From Fidelibacterota bacterium (GTDB lineage: Bacteria; Fidelibacterota; UBA8477; JABMPR01), in NCBI GenBank assembly GCA_021736185.1, contig JAIPGJ010000011.1:1-42595 (forward strand): a stretch of 42,595 bases of DNA, written 5' to 3'. Made by a program: the position numbers and the translations under genes. This document shows, in pieces, positions 9,608 to 20,218 of this stretch. Each line of letters begins with the position of its first letter. The stretch's first letter is position 1. The notes beneath the pieces are model-generated. The model was not told the DNA's origin, made no database searches, and was given only the letters and a program-made list of their open reading frames with translations.

Positions 9608-11041
9608 CTATACTACCAGCTTCGACATGAATTGTCTGGCGCTCACCTGATCACAGTCAAAGATCAGATCCTTGACCTCTACCAAGCGCTCCGCACTCAA
9701 GACACCCGAGGCCAGACTGTTGAACTTGTTCTCCAAATCCTGCAAGGTCATGGGCTCCCGGGGATCACCCTTGGGATACTCCAGATACTCCTCGAAGCGA
9801 CGACCGTCATTGGTAGTCACCACCACCCTGGATGGCTGTTTGGCAGGAAACATGGCCTCAAACTCCAGTGAAGGTTCGCCCACAATCTTGTCAATCACTT
9901 CAAAAATCTTGGGATCCTTTAATTTCTTCTCCGAGAAAGATTGAGTCGTGATCTTCTTGTCTACAATGGCCGCTGCCATACAGTAGGGCAATGAATGATC
10001 CGCGGTTTCCCTTGACTCCGGACGATATTTGGTTGGATCAAACAGAATGTCATAGGCCTGGGCAAAAGCCGTGACTTTGACTTCTTTAATATCCGTGTAA
10101 TCCAGATCATTCTTGATCATGGCATTCAAAGCGCAAGAAATATGTGTATGAGTCAGAGCTTCCGTCGGGAAGGCCTTCATACCACACTCCAGAATCTTAT
10201 AACTCTCCCCCAGCTTCCCAACCAAGGCATCCACATCCCAAGCCCAGGAAGACACCCCGTCACGTCCTTCCATATCCGTGGGCTTCAAGGTTTCATCCTT
10301 GGCATTCCAGCCCACAAAAGCATCCATAAAGCCTTCTTTACCTTCAAAGACTTTCTCCGTCCCTGAATACCCCTTTTGGGCTAACAAGGCTGCAAAAACA
10401 CCCGCCTGTGTGGCCATGGGGTCCACGGTATTTTTCATCATGGTCAGTTTTCCTGCCGTGGGGCAGCCAATGGTGTGGTTGTGACACCCATTGATACCAA
10501 TGGCATTCACCATTTGATCGACAGTGAGACCCAGCATTTTACCCGCTACGATGGGTGATACAAACTGGGTCAGCGTGGCGTGATGCCATTTACGCTCACG
10601 GACACCCGGTTTGGCAAAAAGACACATCCGCATCTCAAATTCATAAGCCAGAACAATGGCCACAATCACATCCTTCATGGACGCGTCTACCTTCTCAGCA
10701 ACCGAGAACGCTGCCGGCATGATGTCGCTGGGATGACTTGGATCGTCCTTCCAGTAAATATCATTGAAATCCAGAGCGCGGATCATTAATGAATTCACCA
10801 GCGCCGTACTCACTGCAGGCAGTTTATCACCAAAGCCCAAAACAGTGGATTCACCAGCGCCACCCATTTCCTGGTAGATCTCCAACATGGATTTTACATC
10901 ATGGGTACCCATGCTGCCAAAAGCACAACCAATGGAATCATAAAGGTAACGTTTCACCTCATAAATGACCTCATCAGGAAGGTCTTCGTATTTCAACCCA
11001 ACGGCAAATTCTGCCATCTGTCTTGCTATTGATTTTTCCAA
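9608..11041 (-). CDS. MmgE/PrpD family protein (2-methylcitrate/citrate dehydratase or cis-aconitate decarboxylase superfamily)
   Basis: YDSIGCAFGSMG, ALDFND.Y, MKNTVDPMATQAGVFAALLAQKGYSG, KYRPESRETADHSLPYCMAAAIVD. Confidence 0.93.
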   Translation of the reverse strand: MEKSIARQMAEFAVGLKYEDLPDEVIYEVKRYLYDSIGCAFGSMGTHDVKSMLEIYQEMGGAGESTVLGFGDKLPAVSTALVNSLMIRALDFNDIYWKDDPSHPSDIMPAAFSVAEKVDASMKDVIVAIVLAYEFEMRMCLFAKPGVRERKWHHATLTQFVSPIVAGKMLGLTVDQMVNAIGINGCHNHTIGCPTAGKLTMMKNTVDPMATQAGVFAALLAQKGYSGTEKVFEGKEGFMDAFVGWNAKDETLKPTDMEGRDGVSSWAWDVDALVGKLGESYKILECGMKAFPTEALTHTHISCALNAMIKNDLDYTDIKEVKVTAFAQAYDILFDPTKYRPESRETADHSLPYCMAAAIVDKKITTQSFSEKKLKDPKIFEVIDKIVGEPSLEFEAMFPAKQPSRVVVTTNDGRRFEEYLEYPKGDPREPMTLQDLENKFNSLASGVLSAERLVEVKDLIFDCDQVSARQFMSKLVV

Positions 11042-11057: not shown

Positions 11058-11080
11058 AACCGCGAATTACGCGAATTAAT
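11058..11080 (+). repeat. Outer repeat (copy 1) of inverted pair flanking GxxExxY gene
   Basis: aaccgcgaattacgcgaattaat. Confidence 0.7.
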
Positions 11081-11461
11081 CTAATTTTTGTTTTGAGTCG
11101 TGCTTACCAATCGTTCCGAAACTAAAGACTTCTCTCCAAAATTCATCAAAATTCCGAGTTGGAGACCAGTTACTTTCAGATAATTGATCACCTGTGCACG
11201 TTCTATATCTCCAAGTTGCTTGAGGGCTTTCAATTCAAGAATAATTTTATTCTCAACAACCAGATCACAAGAGAACTGCTTAATTTCCTGTCCTCGGTAT
11301 GTGATTGGAAATTGCTTCTGTGATTCAAAGTTAATCCCCTGAAAACCTAGCTCGACTTTTAAGGCCTCCTCATACACTGACTCCAGGAATCCCGGACCCA
11401 AAGCTTTGTGGACCTCCATGGCACAACCCACAATTTTATAAGCCAGTTCCTTATAAATCAA
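11081..11461 (-). CDS. GxxExxY protein (PD-(D/E)XK_3 nuclease-like family)
   Basis: GPGFLESVYEEAL (GxxExxY), DLVVENKIILELKALKQL (PD-(D/E)XK-like E-x-K). Confidence 0.92.
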   Translation of the reverse strand: MIYKELAYKIVGCAMEVHKALGPGFLESVYEEALKVELGFQGINFESQKQFPITYRGQEIKQFSCDLVVENKIILELKALKQLGDIERAQVINYLKVTGLQLGILMNFGEKSLVSERLVSTTQNKN

Positions 11462-11524
11462 CTCTACCAGAAATCTACTCCTTCAAATCACCATACATGA
11501 CTCATGTACCAAATCACAAACTAT

Positions 11525-11555
11525 AAAATTCGCGAAATTGGCGTAATTTGTGGTT
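11525..11555 (-). repeat. Outer repeat (copy 2), inverted relative to 11058-11080
   Basis: Reverse complement aaccacaaattacgccaatttcgcgaatttt. Confidence 0.65.
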
Positions 11556-11587
11556 TCTATGCTGTGCGCTCTCAGCGGTTGATGCCT

Positions 11588-12784
11588 TTATAATTTGGCT
11601 ATGATGGCATCGGCCATTTGAGTCGTTGAGGCAGCGCCTTTTTCAACCACATCAGCCCGACCAGCCATTTTGGCCATATCATAGGTCCGAACCTTGCCCT
11701 CAGCCACAACCTCAGCCACCGCTTTCCGTATCCTGGTAGCAATGGATTGCTCATCGATGAAATCCAGCATCATACAGGCTGACTCAATCATGGCAATGGG
11801 ATTCACAATAGATACGGGGTAATCAGCATATTTGGGCGCACTACCATGGGTCGGCTCGAAAACGCCAATACCCGTCTCAGGATTATACTGAGCACTACAG
11901 GCGAAACCCAGGCCACCAATCAAACCGGCAAAGCCATCAGAGACAATATCGCCAAACATATTACCTGCGACAATAACGCCATAATTCTCTGGATTTTTAG
12001 TCAGCCACATCATCTGAGCGTCAATGTTGGTATTCCATAATTCGATTTCCGGGAAATCAGCCCTTTGCATCTGCTGAGCCATCTTGTACATCATGCCTGA
12101 GGTTTCACGAATCACATTTGGTTTTTCACATACAGTTACTGATTTATATCCATATTTCCGGGCGTGTTCGAAGGCAGCCCTCAGGATTCTCTCTGTGGCC
12201 TTTTTGGTGAAAATCCGTGTAGAAATAGAAATTTCTTCAACCGGTGTTCCACCAAAATTCTTAACGAATCGAGGATGGGTCATCAAGGCATCATGAACCT
12301 GTTTGGGTGGGTTACTCCATTCCACTCCGCCATAAAGACCTTCTGTATTCTGGCGGAAAATAGCCACATCCACTTCTGGCTCATCCACCCCACCGTCAGC
12401 AGCTCTTCGAATAAAATTCAAGGGGTTGCCTTTATAGGTACGACAGGGACGTAAACAAATGTCGAGATTAAAATGCTGTCGCAGACCAACAATAGGACTT
12501 GAATAAACCAGACCTTTGGCCTGTAATTCAGGAGCTAATTCATTAAAGGCATCATCTTTGGGTTTAGATGTAATGGCCCCAAACAAACCTATTTTATGCT
12601 CTGCCAGGAGGTCCAAAGTACGCTGAGGCAATGGATTACCCTCCTTGCGCCAGAATTCCCAACCAATATCACCTTCCACATAATTGGCCTCAAAACCTGC
12701 GGCTGCCAGTACACGAATGGCTTCGTCTAAAACCGGTTTTCCAATACCATCTCCCGGCATGCTTACGATTGTTCTTTTTGACAC
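11588..12784 (-). CDS. Isocitrate/isopropylmalate dehydrogenase family, likely isocitrate dehydrogenase
   Basis: MPGDGIGKPV, LRQHFNLDICLRPCRTYKG, FRQNTEGLYGGVEW, GNMFGDIVSDGFAGLIGGLG, FEPTHGSAPKYA. Confidence 0.9.
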   Translation of the reverse strand: MSKRTIVSMPGDGIGKPVLDEAIRVLAAAGFEANYVEGDIGWEFWRKEGNPLPQRTLDLLAEHKIGLFGAITSKPKDDAFNELAPELQAKGLVYSSPIVGLRQHFNLDICLRPCRTYKGNPLNFIRRAADGGVDEPEVDVAIFRQNTEGLYGGVEWSNPPKQVHDALMTHPRFVKNFGGTPVEEISISTRIFTKKATERILRAAFEHARKYGYKSVTVCEKPNVIRETSGMMYKMAQQMQRADFPEIELWNTNIDAQMMWLTKNPENYGVIVAGNMFGDIVSDGFAGLIGGLGFACSAQYNPETGIGVFEPTHGSAPKYADYPVSIVNPIAMIESACMMLDFIDEQSIATRIRKAVAEVVAEGKVRTYDMAKMAGRADVVEKGAASTTQMADAIIAKL

Positions 12785-12831: not shown

Positions 12832-12868
12832 GTCCGGGCGTATCGCGATGCGCCCCACCAATTGATCG
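12832..12868. repeat. GGGCGYATCGCGATGCGCC palindromic repeat, copy 1
   Basis: gtccgggcgtatcgcgatgcgccccaccaattgatcg; second copy at 16978. Confidence 0.75.
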
Positions 12869-14911: not shown

Positions 14912-16882
14912 TTACAACCTTGCTTTTACCCAATTCTCCAGTCCATCAGTCAGGACCAGTTCTTGTGCTGCTGCACCCACGGGACTCAAAGCATAAGTTT
15001 TGCTATTATAGCTTAGAGTTGCGGATTTGAAGTCGATGGTTGCTTTGATGCCGGTGGCCACAGTAAGTTTTTCGCGACCATGGGTATCCAACAGATCTTT
15101 TACCAGTTCGGGAGCTTCCAAAACCAGAAAGCCGTTGTTGATAGCATTGCGTTTATAGGTTTCACTAAATGATCCTGCCAGCACCAGAGAGATGCCGCGA
15201 TACTTCAACGCTGTGGCAGCTTGTTCCCTGGAACTGCCGGTCCCAAAATTGAAGCCACCTACCAGGAAATCACCTTTTTCTACCAAATCCACAAATGCGG
15301 CATCATAGTTTTCCATGACCACGCCAGCCTGTTGCTGAGGAGTGAAATCATCGATATAGGTATATTTTCCGGGGAAAATGCCATCCGTGTTAAGATTATC
15401 CTGATGACAGAATAGAATATTCCCTGTCAATTCTCTGGGAAATCCTTCAAGGATACCCACCTCAATCGCTTCGGCTGCTGCCTTTTTATTGATTTTGATA
15501 TCACCCTGGGGTCGGGCATCATCATAAGCATAGGGTGAAACCACCTTTCCAGCTACTGCTGAGGCGGCTACTACAGCGGGAGAAGCCAGATAAGCCTTGG
15601 CGCTTTTGGCTCCCATGCGACCTTTAAAATTGCGGTTTGTGGCAGAAATCCCTACTTCGTTTTCTTCCAGTAGGCCCACACCCAATCCAATACAGGGTCC
15701 ACAACCTGGCGGCAAAGGTCTGGCACCAGCATCCACCAGCGCTTGCCAGTCTCCCCGGGTTTCACTCTCAGCCTGAACTTCGCTGGAGGCCGCAGCGATG
15801 TAAAACTCTACATGGGGGGCCACTTTTTGACCCTTAATCGTCCTGGCGGCTTCGGCTAAATCTTCTACGCGACTATTGACACAGGAGACCAGGTAGGCTT
15901 TGTGAATCTTCACCCCGGCTTTTTCCATGGTCTTGGCGGATGTCATGGTTTTTACGTTATCCGGACCAGAAACATTGGGCTCCACTGTGGCCAGATCCAA
16001 CACCAGTTCTTTGGCATAATAAGCATCCGGGTCCGCATATGGGGCGGTTTGCTTGAGTTGGGAAATTCGACCAAAATTCATGCGTGGGGAATCACCACCT
16101 TTGGCGTCAGCATCGGATTCTACGCCAGAGAGGCCTCGCTTTTCAACAGTCAGGGCTCGGGCTTCCAGCCAGTCAAAGGTCACGATATCAATAGGAAATA
16201 CACCGGCCAGGGCACCCCACTCGGTGGTCATGTTAGCAATAGTCAAACGCTGATCAATGGTCAGTGAGGCCAGGCCGTCTCCCACAAATTCAATGGCATG
16301 ATTCAAGACTTCATCATGATTAAAGAGTCCTGCAAGAGTGATAATGACGTCTTTACCGGTAACACCCGGTCTTAGTTGATTTTTCAGTTCTACTTTGGCT
16401 ACAGGGGGTACCTGCCACCAGGTCCTGCCCGTTGCCCATATGGCTGCTGCATCCGTGCGAACGATGGGGGTTCCCAGCACGCCGAGTCCGCCATACATGT
16501 TGGAGTGACTGTCTGATGCCACAACCATGCTGCCAGGCCAGGCATAGCCCTCCTCACACATGATCTGATGACCGATACCGCGACCGGCAGGATAGAAATC
16601 CACGCCCATTGCTTTGGCGAAGGCTTCAATGCCGGCATACTTCTTAAGGTTGGCTTCACTGGTATCCTGAACATTATGATCCAGAGCGTAAACCGGTTGT
16701 CTGGGATTGGCCACTTTGGTGGCACCAATCGCCTTGAACTTATTCATCACGGCACCCGTATTGTCATGGGTCATGACATGAGCTGGCGATATGGATAAAA
16801 AGTCACCACTCCTCACTCTATGTCCCTGTTCCAGATCAACGGCATATTTCTGGGCAATCTTTTCAATCAAATTTTGTGACAT
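14912..16882 (-). CDS. Aconitase-superfamily hydratase (fused large+small domains), strongly resembling fungal homoaconitase Lys4
   Basis: FYPAGRGIGHQIMCEEGYAWPGSMVVASDSHSN, GTPIVRTDAAAIWATGRTWWQVPPVAKVELK, VSCVNSR, PPGCGPCIGLG, GISATNRNFKGRMG, GGFNFGTGSSREQAA; ORF caller extends to TTG 16903 inside a repeat, ATG 16882 preferred. Confidence 0.9.
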   Translation of the reverse strand: MSQNLIEKIAQKYAVDLEQGHRVRSGDFLSISPAHVMTHDNTGAVMNKFKAIGATKVANPRQPVYALDHNVQDTSEANLKKYAGIEAFAKAMGVDFYPAGRGIGHQIMCEEGYAWPGSMVVASDSHSNMYGGLGVLGTPIVRTDAAAIWATGRTWWQVPPVAKVELKNQLRPGVTGKDVIITLAGLFNHDEVLNHAIEFVGDGLASLTIDQRLTIANMTTEWGALAGVFPIDIVTFDWLEARALTVEKRGLSGVESDADAKGGDSPRMNFGRISQLKQTAPYADPDAYYAKELVLDLATVEPNVSGPDNVKTMTSAKTMEKAGVKIHKAYLVSCVNSRVEDLAEAARTIKGQKVAPHVEFYIAAASSEVQAESETRGDWQALVDAGARPLPPGCGPCIGLGVGLLEENEVGISATNRNFKGRMGAKSAKAYLASPAVVAASAVAGKVVSPYAYDDARPQGDIKINKKAAAEAIEVGILEGFPRELTGNILFCHQDNLNTDGIFPGKYTYIDDFTPQQQAGVVMENYDAAFVDLVEKGDFLVGGFNFGTGSSREQAATALKYRGISLVLAGSFSETYKRNAINNGFLVLEAPELVKDLLDTHGREKLTVATGIKATIDFKSATLSYNSKTYALSPVGAAAQELVLTDGLENWVKARL

Positions 16883-16901
16883 ATTAGACCCTTTAAACTG
16901 C

Positions 16902-17128
16902 AACCGCGAATTTCGCGAATTTAATTATTTCCATCCAATTTTACAGAATAGGCGAGTATCATTGTTGATAAGACTCTGTACGGGCGCATCGCGATGCGCC
17001 ACAACAAATGATCGTTGCCAGCTTTTCTGTATTGTTTTTAATATATTCAATCATTGCTTTCTTTTTTAATTGAGACTAGCCCACAAATCAAAAAAACAAA
17101 TTCGTGAAATTCGCGCAATTCGCGGTTC
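16902..17128. mobile_element. Putative non-autonomous (MITE-like) copy of the inverted-repeat unit, no ORF
   Basis: aaccgcgaatttcgcgaatttaa at left; aaattcgtgaaattcgcgcaattcgcggtt at right, inverted; same repeat family as 11058/11525. Confidence 0.5.
16978..17015. repeat. GGGCGCATCGCGATGCGCC palindromic repeat, copy 2
   Basis: gtacgggcgcatcgcgatgcgccacaacaaatgatcg; near-identical extended match to 12832-12868. Confidence 0.75.
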
Positions 17129-17136
17129 ATTTTGCC

Positions 17137-19581
17137 CTACTTTATTTCCACCTTGACTGGCATGACCATCTGGATTTTCCCACCCTCTATGATGGGAATG
17201 AGATCATTGACTTTCAGTGATTCAAGAACATTACTCGAGAGCAAATCAATCTGAGCCCTCTGGTTAAACATGTTCTTGAAATCAGTCTTTTTCTCCCGGC
17301 GGGGCAATTCCACGATTTCTACATCACCCTCGATGCCTGCAGCTTTTTTAGCCAGCTCAATGGCATCATAGTAGCCACCCACCTCATCAATGAGGCCATA
17401 CTTTTTAGCATCCAATCCAGTCCAGACTCTACCCAGGGCCAGGCTATCCAGTGCATCTACATCATTGAGACCTTCACGACCCTTGACGACCCGTTCTTTG
17501 AACTTTAAATAGGTGTCGTTGATGGATTCCAGAATCAGGGCGTTTTCTTCTTCTGTAGCCAGACGACTGCCACTGGCGAAATCAGCATTTTTACCCATTT
17601 TGATGCCTTCTGAATGGACACCAAAGCGCTCCATGAGCTGGGAAAAATTGAGACGCATCCCAATGACACCAATGGATCCGGTGATGGTAGATGGATAAGC
17701 GATAATACTATCAGCCTGACAGGCGATATAATAGCCCCCTGAAGCCGCCACATCGGACATGGAGGCGATAAAGGGTTTAATGTTGGCCGAATCGGTTTCA
17801 GTTGTTTTGAGAATTTCCCGCCACATGATGTCCGATGCCAGGGCCGACCCGCCGCCGCTGTCTATACGCAGGACAATGGCCTTGATGCTCTTGTCTTCAC
17901 GGGCTTCCTTGATAGCATTGGCAATGGTTTCATCACCCATGCTGGTCGATCCAGCAGGTCCCCGCTTGCTTTTTCCTGAAACGATACCACCCACCGCATA
18001 GATCACGGCAATTTGATCGCTCACCTTGTCATCACGCCAGGCGTACTGATACTCCGGGATTTCTGTTTTGACCTTCACTTTGACGATTTTCACTTTACCA
18101 TCATTGAGATCATCTACATAGTCATCGAATTCATCTGGATACATGGTTCCTGTGATAAGGCCTGCAACCCGGGCTTTGGTTGTGAGCATATAGGGACCAT
18201 TATCTACGATCTCCCGGGTTTTTTCAATATCCCAATCTTTGCCTTCAGCAATTCCGGCAATAAACTCGTCGTAGATACCTTCCAGCAGCTGGGAATAATT
18301 CACCCGCATGGCCTCAGACATTGTATCATTGAGATAGGTATCAGCAGCCGTCTTGAAGGGGCTTACCCGCCAGACTTCAGGGACAATAGAAAGCGTGTCC
18401 AGAAGTCCTCGGAAAAAGGTGACCTCCATGGCCAGGCCACGAAGATCCACGCCGGCCATCTCATGAACATAGATTTCATCGGCCATGGACAGCAAATAAG
18501 TCGTCGCATTGCCAAGACCAAATTTACTATAGACGATAATTTCTTTCCCTGCATCATGGAAACGCTGAAAGGCATCTCTCATTTCGGTCATCTTACTGAA
18601 TCCTGCGCGGACATTGCCCAGATCGATGATCATCCCATCAACATCAGGATCTTCAGTGTATTCCTGCATCTCATCAACAAAGTTTTTTAGCTGTTTGCCA
18701 TAAACAGCGGGACTGCCAATGAAAGGGATGTCCATATCAAACTTGATGGGAAACTTTGGCTTTTTGATTTCTGGTTCTTCTATAAAGAGACCATCCAGTT
18801 TCATGCGCAGGTAGGTTTTGGTATCTTTCTTAAGGGCTTTCTCGCCAAAAACAGAACGATAGGGATTCTCTGTTGATCGGAGAACCAGGGTCTGAGATGA
18901 AAAACTACTGGAATTGCCATGACTCTCAACACCCATATCAGGCATGAAGATGCTCAGTGAAATCCCGTAATTGCTGTTACCCAGTTCTGAAAAAGCGTTT
19001 AATCTTACCCCTTTGATCGGCTCTATAAATCCCGTGAGGAAACCGTCTGTGTCAGAATTACCCTCAGTGATACCCAGGTCAAACCCGGCACCTATTCGAC
19101 CGGTTCTGTTTTGGACCGCGAACCCCGTATTCAGTTTGAGGGGATCAGAGTCTCCGGACCAGACATTCTGAATCTGGGCACCCAAAGCCAGCATGGGAAA
19201 GGGACGATGCATCCAACCCAGGTCAAAACGGCCCTCTTTCCAGCGGGAATTATCAAAACTATAGGTGAAACCAATGCTTTGCGATTTTGTAAGCTTTATT
19301 CCCTGACTAAACCTCCAGATATTGGTGGCCGAAACCACATCCCACTGATAGGCAAATCCGGTGTTTTTTGATTGACTAAAATAGGCGAAGTCCCTGGTAA
19401 AAGCGGATCCGTCAAAGTGGGCCATCAGCATGGTTTCGGTATGGTTGTTAAAACCCAAGCCGGCAGGATTATAACGGATGGCCATGGGATCGTCTATGGC
19501 TGCCACTGCAGGCTGTACCACCTGGATTTGAGCCATGAGTAGACTCGTACTAATTATAAATAATGCTATGGTTCTGACCAT
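17137..19581 (-). CDS. sppA: Signal peptide peptidase SppA (67K-type duplicated protease) fused to N-terminal outer-membrane-barrel-like domain
   Basis: Signal peptide MVRTIALFIISTSLLMAQ; PAVAAIDDPMAIRYNPAGLGF barrel N-terminus; RVSPFKTAADTYLNDTMSE (Lys) and SMSDVAASGGYYIACQAD (Ser). ORF caller start 19704; ATG 19581 with AGGA upstream preferred. Confidence 0.88.
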   Translation of the reverse strand: MVRTIALFIISTSLLMAQIQVVQPAVAAIDDPMAIRYNPAGLGFNNHTETMLMAHFDGSAFTRDFAYFSQSKNTGFAYQWDVVSATNIWRFSQGIKLTKSQSIGFTYSFDNSRWKEGRFDLGWMHRPFPMLALGAQIQNVWSGDSDPLKLNTGFAVQNRTGRIGAGFDLGITEGNSDTDGFLTGFIEPIKGVRLNAFSELGNSNYGISLSIFMPDMGVESHGNSSSFSSQTLVLRSTENPYRSVFGEKALKKDTKTYLRMKLDGLFIEEPEIKKPKFPIKFDMDIPFIGSPAVYGKQLKNFVDEMQEYTEDPDVDGMIIDLGNVRAGFSKMTEMRDAFQRFHDAGKEIIVYSKFGLGNATTYLLSMADEIYVHEMAGVDLRGLAMEVTFFRGLLDTLSIVPEVWRVSPFKTAADTYLNDTMSEAMRVNYSQLLEGIYDEFIAGIAEGKDWDIEKTREIVDNGPYMLTTKARVAGLITGTMYPDEFDDYVDDLNDGKVKIVKVKVKTEIPEYQYAWRDDKVSDQIAVIYAVGGIVSGKSKRGPAGSTSMGDETIANAIKEAREDKSIKAIVLRIDSGGGSALASDIMWREILKTTETDSANIKPFIASMSDVAASGGYYIACQADSIIAYPSTITGSIGVIGMRLNFSQLMERFGVHSEGIKMGKNADFASGSRLATEEENALILESINDTYLKFKERVVKGREGLNDVDALDSLALGRVWTGLDAKKYGLIDEVGGYYDAIELAKKAAGIEGDVEIVELPRREKKTDFKNMFNQRAQIDLLSSNVLESLKVNDLIPIIEGGKIQMVMPVKVEIK

Positions 19582-19666
19582 AAAAGCCATCCTTTCGCTA
19601 ATCGCTTGAAACCAATCTTTAAAGCTTAATAACAAGGCTTCTTGAACCTGGTGCCATAATGTCAAA

Positions 19667-20218
19667 TTATGCTTTGAAGGGTTCAAAGGAAACAAAGTCG
19701 GCATGGTGGACGATTATTGATTCAACAGTTCTTATTCCCAAATCTCCCTCTTTGGAGTGGGTAGCGATAATATGCTGAACCTCGGCCGGCAATTCAAACT
19801 GAAAAGCAATGGCTGCACCGCTGAAGGGATGACGCACAATTTTTCCCATGGAGCTGGTACCCAGTTTGCCGTCTTGCATCTCATATTCAAGGAGCTTGCC
19901 AATATCAATCAGAATGGCTCCTGAAATCAAAATGTCCATATCGATTTTCATGGCATCACCAAAATTTTCCTGCATGCGTTTGGCAATATCCACGGCCAAC
20001 TGGACACAGGTTCTTTTGTGATTCATGAATGAAACATTGACATCTTTAATTAACAGACTAAAGGGTATCACCTCAAGATCTTCGGGAGAGAGGACACTAT
20101 TTTCAATGGCCCAAACCCAGGCATTCAAGGTTTTCTCACGCAATTCCTTATCTTTGATCCATTTGATCTCAGGCCAGATTTTTAGTACTTTATCTTTCAC
20201 TATTAGAATCTCCTTCAT
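19667..20218 (-). CDS. HD-domain phosphohydrolase-like protein
   Basis: MNHKRTCVQLA...ILIDIGKLLEYE...HPFSGAAIAF...ATHSKEGD...HHADFVSF. Confidence 0.85.
   Translation of the reverse strand: MKEILIVKDKVLKIWPEIKWIKDKELREKTLNAWVWAIENSVLSPEDLEVIPFSLLIKDVNVSFMNHKRTCVQLAVDIAKRMQENFGDAMKIDMDILISGAILIDIGKLLEYEMQDGKLGTSSMGKIVRHPFSGAAIAFQFELPAEVQHIIATHSKEGDLGIRTVESIIVHHADFVSFEPFKA

Follow-up and report, generated by a model that had tools for sequence, protein, structure and literature searches.

Proteins of the GxxExxY family are encoded by many bacterial and some archaeal genomes and have little assigned function. Within the window, the stretch of 42,595 nt analysed here, sequence analysis showed a 126-codon ORF of this family lying inside inverted arms in the intergenic gap between the IDH and MmgE/PrpD genes. 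This locus raises the question of whether such a gene and its flanking repeats form a minimal mobile unit, as an initial annotation had proposed, and what part the encoded protein plays in it.

The GxxExxY gene of the window and its arms

The two arms of the element (Table 1) are 31 nt long and 77% complementary, with a 17-nt core that is 88% complementary. Each arm consists of three units of approximately 9 bp (AACC-CGCGAATTN...), the left arm of the ORF being composed of the units CCACAAATT-A-CGCCAATT-T-CGCGAATT, and the stop codon of the ORF falls within the last unit of the downstream arm. The description of a single GxxExxY ORF within imperfect inverted repeats was borne out by these arms and by the match of the protein to PF13366. 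No gene besides the PDDEXK_3 ORF was found in this element of approximately 500 bp, and therefore no transposase of a known class, and a domain search of the ORF did not identify a Y1 (HUH) transposase domain.

The protein belongs to the families PF13366 (PDDEXK_3; E = 6e-42, 143.1 bits with a cut-off of 22) and TIGR04256 (E = 2e-44, 150.7 bits with a cut-off of 35), both scores exceeding the curated cut-offs. Conserved active-site residues were identified as E27, D66, E76 and K78; among 44 sequences G24, E27, Y30, D66 and E76 were invariant, with K78 present in at least 90%. An AlphaFold2 model of the window protein (pLDDT 93.7, pTM 0.85) was compared to solved structures using Foldseek, with Cas4 (4ic1, E = 8.5e-5) and lambda exonuclease (1avq, E = 2.9e-3) as the best PDB neighbours at modest TM-scores of 0.46-0.57. 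Other close fold neighbours were LHK-Exo, AdnA and MGME1, while the R2 retrotransposon structure and the I-Bth0305I homing endonuclease domain ranked lower with weak scores; no significant homologue of solved structure was identified by sequence. On the basis of this model the GxxExxY protein is a predicted nuclease with a PD-(D/E)XK fold of the Cas4/RecB/lambda-exonuclease type. The ORF is under purifying selection, dN/dS being 0.03-0.17 in 14 of the 15 computable pairs (three of 18 pairs had saturated dS), with L235/L245 as the exception at 0.50. A role in anti-phage defence or a phage origin was considered and rejected, as GxxExxY had no PADLOC or PHROG match.

Table 1. Coordinates of the elements, their arms and the adjoining genes in the window
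Feature	Position	Strand	Remarks
MmgE/PrpD gene	9608-11041		Co-directional with the GxxExxY ORF
Complete GxxExxY element (arm, ORF, arm)	11058-11555	-	In the IDH–MmgE/PrpD gap, co-directional with both genes
Downstream arm (3' of the ORF)	11058-11088	+	AACC-CGCGAATTA-CGCGAATTA-ATCTAATTT
GxxExxY / PDDEXK_3 nuclease-fold gene	11081-11461	-	126 aa, TTG start; PF13366 and TIGR04256 matches
Upstream arm (5' of the ORF)	11525-11555	-	AACCACAAATTA-CGCCAATTT-CGCGAATTTT, minus-strand reading
Remnant arm of another element type	11557-11581	-	CAACCGCTGAGAGCGCACAGCATAG, CGCAGAG-like; between the CGCGAATT element and the IDH gene; sequence read directly
IDH gene	11588-12784		Co-directional with the GxxExxY ORF
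Aconitase gene	14912-16903		Adjoins the ORF-less element
Second element, same arm type, without GxxExxY ORF	16902-17127	.	Between the aconitase and SppA-like genes
Arm of the ORF-less element	16902-16925	+	AACCGCGAATTTCGCGAATTTAATT
Opposite arm of the ORF-less element	17098-17127	-	AACCGCGAATTGCGCGAATTTCACGAATTT, minus-strand reading
SppA-like gene	17137-19704		Adjoins the ORF-less element

The 17-mer CGCGAATTACGCGAATT occurred seven times in the window when up to three mismatches were allowed (0.06 expected), and all seven matches fell in two places, namely the arms of the GxxExxY element and the inverted pair between the aconitase and SppA-like genes. Elsewhere in the 2.7-Mb genome it was found with up to two mismatches in only two more places, one of which (C58, L006) lies within coding sequence, and the genome of the window carries one further GxxExxY gene. 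A profile search gave no PF13366 match in the second inverted pair, which thus consists of inverted ends without an ORF, the ends being common to the ORF-bearing element, as in a MITE. From its sequence it may be a relic or a MITE-like derivative, and ORF-less arm pairs in general could be either relics or derivatives that might be mobilised in trans. The remnant arm next to the IDH gene, in turn, is a trace of an older insertion at that junction.

Arms of the CGCGAATT type were also observed on a single side of a gene, with neither an ORF nor a clear partner (L010-L016; G001, G011, G014, G016), including at sites between divergent and convergent genes. Separately, a palindrome, GGCGCATCGCGATGCGCC, has two copies in the window (12837-12854 and 16983-17000, one with a mismatch; 0 expected), one of them sitting within the ORF-less element; it is probably a separate REP-like family.

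Arm words within the genus and across phyla

GxxExxY genes were borne by 16 of the 19 genomes of this Neomarinimicrobiota genus, all 16 showing the arm-ORF-arm anatomy, and the best named match in a scan of GTDB contigs was JABMQQ010000112, at 82% protein identity. Arms of repeated units were visible at nearly all of the 50 genus loci when the flanks were read; despite the degeneracy of the units, a strict alignment test placed the own-arm inverted-repeat score above all coding controls at 32 of the 50. The arm unit was found to vary by protein clade, with CGCGAATT, CACGGATT, CGCAGAGG, CACAGAG, CACAGATGA, CACGAAT, CAACGAA and CACAAAG all represented, and the nearest arm belonged to the same protein clade in 35 of 50 cases as against 6.6 expected (1000 permutations, maximum 18), the comparison being confined to opposite arms from different junctions. 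Genus neighbours were co-directional with the GxxExxY gene in all scored cases, both upstream (49/49) and downstream (49/49), these cases covering 17 junctions and not representing 98 independent events.

The GTDB contig scan identified 80 GxxExxY loci from many bacterial phyla and from archaea, among them Planctomycetota, Pseudomonadota, Cloacimonadota, Bacteroidota, Chloroflexota, Verrucomicrobiota and Acidobacteriota, with further taxa including Cyanobacteria, Spirochaetota, Nitrospinota, Omnitrophota and Methanosarcinales (two archaea among 79 loci). The own-arm score was above the maximum of the coding controls at 61 of 79 loci and above the 95th percentile of the flanks of neighbouring genes at 63 of 73 (p 1e-18), with arms undetectable at about 18 of the 79. 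Arms were usually made up of three words of approximately 7 bp with spacers of 1-4 bp, giving a period of 8-10 bp (11 bp in one arm) that was significant in 55 of 120 arms under a strict shuffle test. Words such as CGCCAAG, ACAGGAT, CACGGAA, CGGAATTA, CACAAAAG and CATAGAAA, and others besides, differ between lineages, whereas within an element its units have the word in common on either side of the gene. Inverted arms flank GxxExxY genes throughout the genus and across phyla, confirming the association of the repeats with these genes. The initial annotation was correct in that the arms are real, but the exact 20-mer on which it built them is one type among many arm sequences, occurring in five of 60 relatives, all within the genus, and it was rejected as a general marker.

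Arm similarity tracked protein similarity across phyla (Mantel rho 0.30, reached in 0 of 2000 permutations), and the arm-nearest neighbour was among the top five by protein at 36 of 60 loci. Since gene and arms are physically linked, common descent accounts for part of this co-variation. All the units, however, change jointly across the two arms, and it is this change in step with the protein that suggests that the protein recognises its own arms. Co-direction was less complete than in the genus, at 57 of 74 loci upstream and 71 of 77 downstream, with a few copies antisense to both neighbours. Nearly perfect inverted ends of approximately 65-85 bp were observed around the GxxExxY genes L184 and L152, from MAGs of Verrucomicrobia and Chloroflexi; these are possibly recent insertions.

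An excess of G-U pairs would be expected in arm mismatches if the arms were maintained for pairing as RNA. No such bias was found among 103 loci (109 versus 132, p 0.16), therefore favouring recognition as double-stranded DNA, and the RNA stem-loop reading of the arms was rejected on this absence of asymmetry. Judged by their sequence, the arms look like protein-binding DNA and not an RNA stem, although a step through RNA at another point of the cycle may still be compatible with the lack of G-U bias. A ribosomal RNA context was also rejected, with zero rRNA model matches in 19 loci or in the window.

Target duplications and turnover of junctions

Evidence for movement was obtained from a relative (G244) with 25 GxxExxY matches, in which near-identical copies occupy unrelated sites: L231 matches L232 at 96.5% identity over 512 bp, and L247 matches L249 at 98% over 299 bp. 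Empty sites for G244 copies were found in two sister genomes, with target duplications of 7 bp for L232 (TAATTAG), 8 bp for L235 (ATAAAAAC), 13 bp for L245 (CCAATTTTGATAA) and about 7 bp for L250 (~GTTTTTT). Where an element end has letters in common with the target, these limits are uncertain by 1-2 bp, and all four comparisons set one draft genome against its two sisters. The L250 copy, which lies on contig C102 and has GGGAAAA-type arms, is inserted in a gene for a rimI-like acetyltransferase, and both sisters have this gene in intact form. The four target sites are unrelated in sequence and only AT-rich. GxxExxY elements move within genomes, leaving variable target duplications of about 7-13 bp, and the proposal of a minimal mobile unit is upheld by these copies and empty sites. 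Variable duplication length is unusual for DDE transposases. Two G244 elements, L247 (~330-420 and 905-975) and L237 (~1485-1510 and 1830-1860), were observed to be split by further small inserts of palindromic sequence (TTCACCCCGTTAGAT...ATCTAACGGGGTGAA; TCCCGAAGGGATCTCTTCGA).

Within the genus, the same two junctions were occupied differently from genome to genome. The SppA–aconitase junction is empty in G001, with a gap of 17 bp; it carries the CGCGAATT type in G013, G010 and G014, the CACGGATT type in G011, G006 and G016, and the CGCAGAG type in G005 and G015, each of the latter adjoining a remnant arm of another type. ORF-less versions are present in the genome of the window (G000), G003 and G002. 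In G009, G012, G004, G008 and G018 the gap measures 58-102 bp and in some cases contains degenerate remnants of arms. At the IDH–PrpD junction three element types alternate among the genus genomes, and in G016, G011 and G003 a CGCAGAG element has a CGCGAATT remnant outside it. Type changes on the aconitase (host) tree numbered at least seven at SppA–aconitase and at least four at IDH–PrpD, and the several element types together with these changes therefore indicate repeated re-occupation of both spots. The polymorphism between empty and occupied sites that the initial annotation had proposed as a check was accordingly present at SppA–aconitase and among the G244 copies, but no fully empty IDH–PrpD site was found among the genus genomes: in the ORF-less sister G009 the gap is 171 bp long and still holds a degenerate arm.

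Proposed mechanism, alternatives and related systems

We consider it probable that the unit is a minimal mobile element with one gene, and that its arms are recognised by the nuclease it encodes; any particular chemistry of movement is put forward with less confidence than this recognition. The earlier suggestion that the protein acts on, or travels with, its repeats is consistent with the co-variation and the conserved active site, from which we infer that it would act on them. In the proposed sequence of events the nuclease, probably as a multimer, would bind double-stranded DNA at the repeated words of the two arms, pair the element ends and nick or cut the target with a variable stagger, after which host repair would insert a copy of the element; the nuclease would in this way presumably catalyse movement. 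The element is apparently without a promoter of its own and would be transcribed from the host operon. GxxExxY elements are located co-directionally within transcription units, and reading from the host operon would explain this orientation.

Other explanations share parts of this evidence. Were the element a non-autonomous passenger, with an unrelated transposase or recombinase recognising the arms in trans and GxxExxY as cargo or accessory, the ORF-less arm pairs at the same junctions (window, G003, G002) would be understandable, as arms may then move without the gene, and the GxxExxY protein is not a classical transposase. Across phyla, however, arm word and GxxExxY subfamily vary together, the duplications vary over 7-13 bp, unlike those of DDE transposases, and the PD-(D/E)XK residues are invariant in an ORF under purifying selection; we regard this alternative as unlikely. 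A homing-type selfish nuclease, which would cut arm-bearing or empty alleles and be copied in by recombination, mostly at the same junctions, appears improbable as well, given that the new sites in G244 share only AT-richness and carry target duplications, so that at least those insertions were not into a fixed site. In its favour are the re-occupation of junctions by different types next to older arm remnants and the presence of the I-Bth0305I catalytic domain weakly among the fold neighbours.

The near-absolute sense orientation in genus operons, shared by the S23/IVP genes described below (29/29 upstream and 29/29 downstream), could alternatively reflect a tiny RNA-mediated retroelement, the operon transcript being copied into a nuclease-nicked site by a host reverse transcriptase or one supplied in trans. 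Target duplications of variable length and the R2 retrotransposon structure weakly among the fold neighbours would agree with this, but the bias weakens in the cross-phylum set, a need for host transcription accounts for it as well, the arms are not kept as an RNA stem and the element has no reverse transcriptase, making such a route distinctly unlikely. Finally, the gene could be useful to the host or regulate the operon, in which case the arms would serve as signals for the processing or stability of mRNA, and mobility would be incidental. Persistence at orthologous operon junctions with dN/dS of about 0.03-0.17 is in line with this, long residence at values near 0.1 being fitting, as is placement just upstream of Shine-Dalgarno sequences. 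Against it are the different types, or absence, at the same junction between species, the lack of conserved RNA pairing, the copy inserted inside the rimI-like gene and the many different functional contexts, and we judge it very unlikely.

Returning to the one-gene element with its own nuclease, a comparison was made with PF05635 (S23/IVP) genes, which are present in all 19 genus genomes in elements separate from those of GxxExxY. The 29 PF05635 loci (L075-L103) lie in operons, co-directional with both neighbours throughout, and have inverted arms of other words (GGAAGTTT, GAATTCAG, TTTTTGAG, AAAGTC, GTGAATT; e.g. L076, L094, L078), the strict arm test being passed at 13 of the 29. The S23p/IVP protein is the four-helix protein of 23S rRNA intervening sequences in Coxiella and Leptospira; the S23p ORF of Coxiella, which is in sense with the rRNA, follows three tandem GACAGAT heptamers, and a mobile origin of the element has been proposed only (PMC4990558). 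Of the known systems, the 23S rRNA intervening sequence comes closest in kind to the GxxExxY element: both are of approximately 0.4-0.5 kb with one small sense ORF and inverted ends, and mobility of the intervening sequences has long been suspected (PMC4990558). The proteins, however, are unrelated (PD-(D/E)XK versus a four-helix bundle), and GxxExxY elements lie between protein genes instead of in rRNA, do not maintain their arms as an RNA stem, and have mobility and target duplications evident from empty sites. A wider reading, held more tentatively and falling somewhat short of an even chance, is that GxxExxY elements form a new autonomous class of mobile element in bacteria and archaea, for whose movement a lone Cas4-like nuclease and arms of lineage-specific repeated words may be enough, with the unrelated S23/IVP genes sharing the same end architecture and the 23S rRNA intervening sequences being one corner of it.

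Insertion sequences likewise have one gene inside terminal inverted repeats, target duplications and multiple copies, but the GxxExxY element has no DDE, HUH or recombinase gene, its ends are iterated lineage-specific words and its duplication length is not fixed (7, 8, 13 and ~7 bp). REP/RAYT systems (REPINs) also involve short intergenic sequences that co-evolve with a cognate single-gene protein; the RAYT protein, however, is a transposase of the Y1 (HUH) class with palindromic hairpins as its substrates, whereas GxxExxY is of PD-(D/E)XK type with iterated arms and the gene inside them. Free-standing PD-(D/E)XK homing endonucleases are similarly small selfish nuclease genes of the same fold superfamily. 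In contrast to these, GxxExxY carries its own inverted arms, is not in an intron or intein, and has no single conserved insertion sequence, the four G244 sites being unrelated, yet junctions recur within the genus. TAACTGA heptamer direct repeats have been described in Beggiatoaceae, Cyanobacteria and Bacteroidetes as 2-6 tandem heptamers just 5' of start codons, patchily distributed across phyla and with no known mechanism, and their author suggested that the mobile element might be a repeat-binding protein (PMC4679880). A link between these heptamers and GxxExxY elements is offered as a suggestion, with the difference that the account of the heptamers described neither an encoded protein nor an inverted partner (PMC4679880).

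No published description of GxxExxY elements was found in a literature search that excluded most subscription journals. Single genes enclosed by inverted ends are a known kind of element; what appears to be new is the class of protein, the iterated ends that differ by lineage, and the connection with S23/IVP elements. GxxExxY proteins as the sole gene of mobile elements would give this family a role and a direct test of it, and would offer an origin for short iterated words previously seen in bacterial intergenic regions and left unexplained, with ties to the unexplained 23S rRNA intervening sequences. The many naturally diversified pairs of nuclease and word may also allow a recognition code to be derived.
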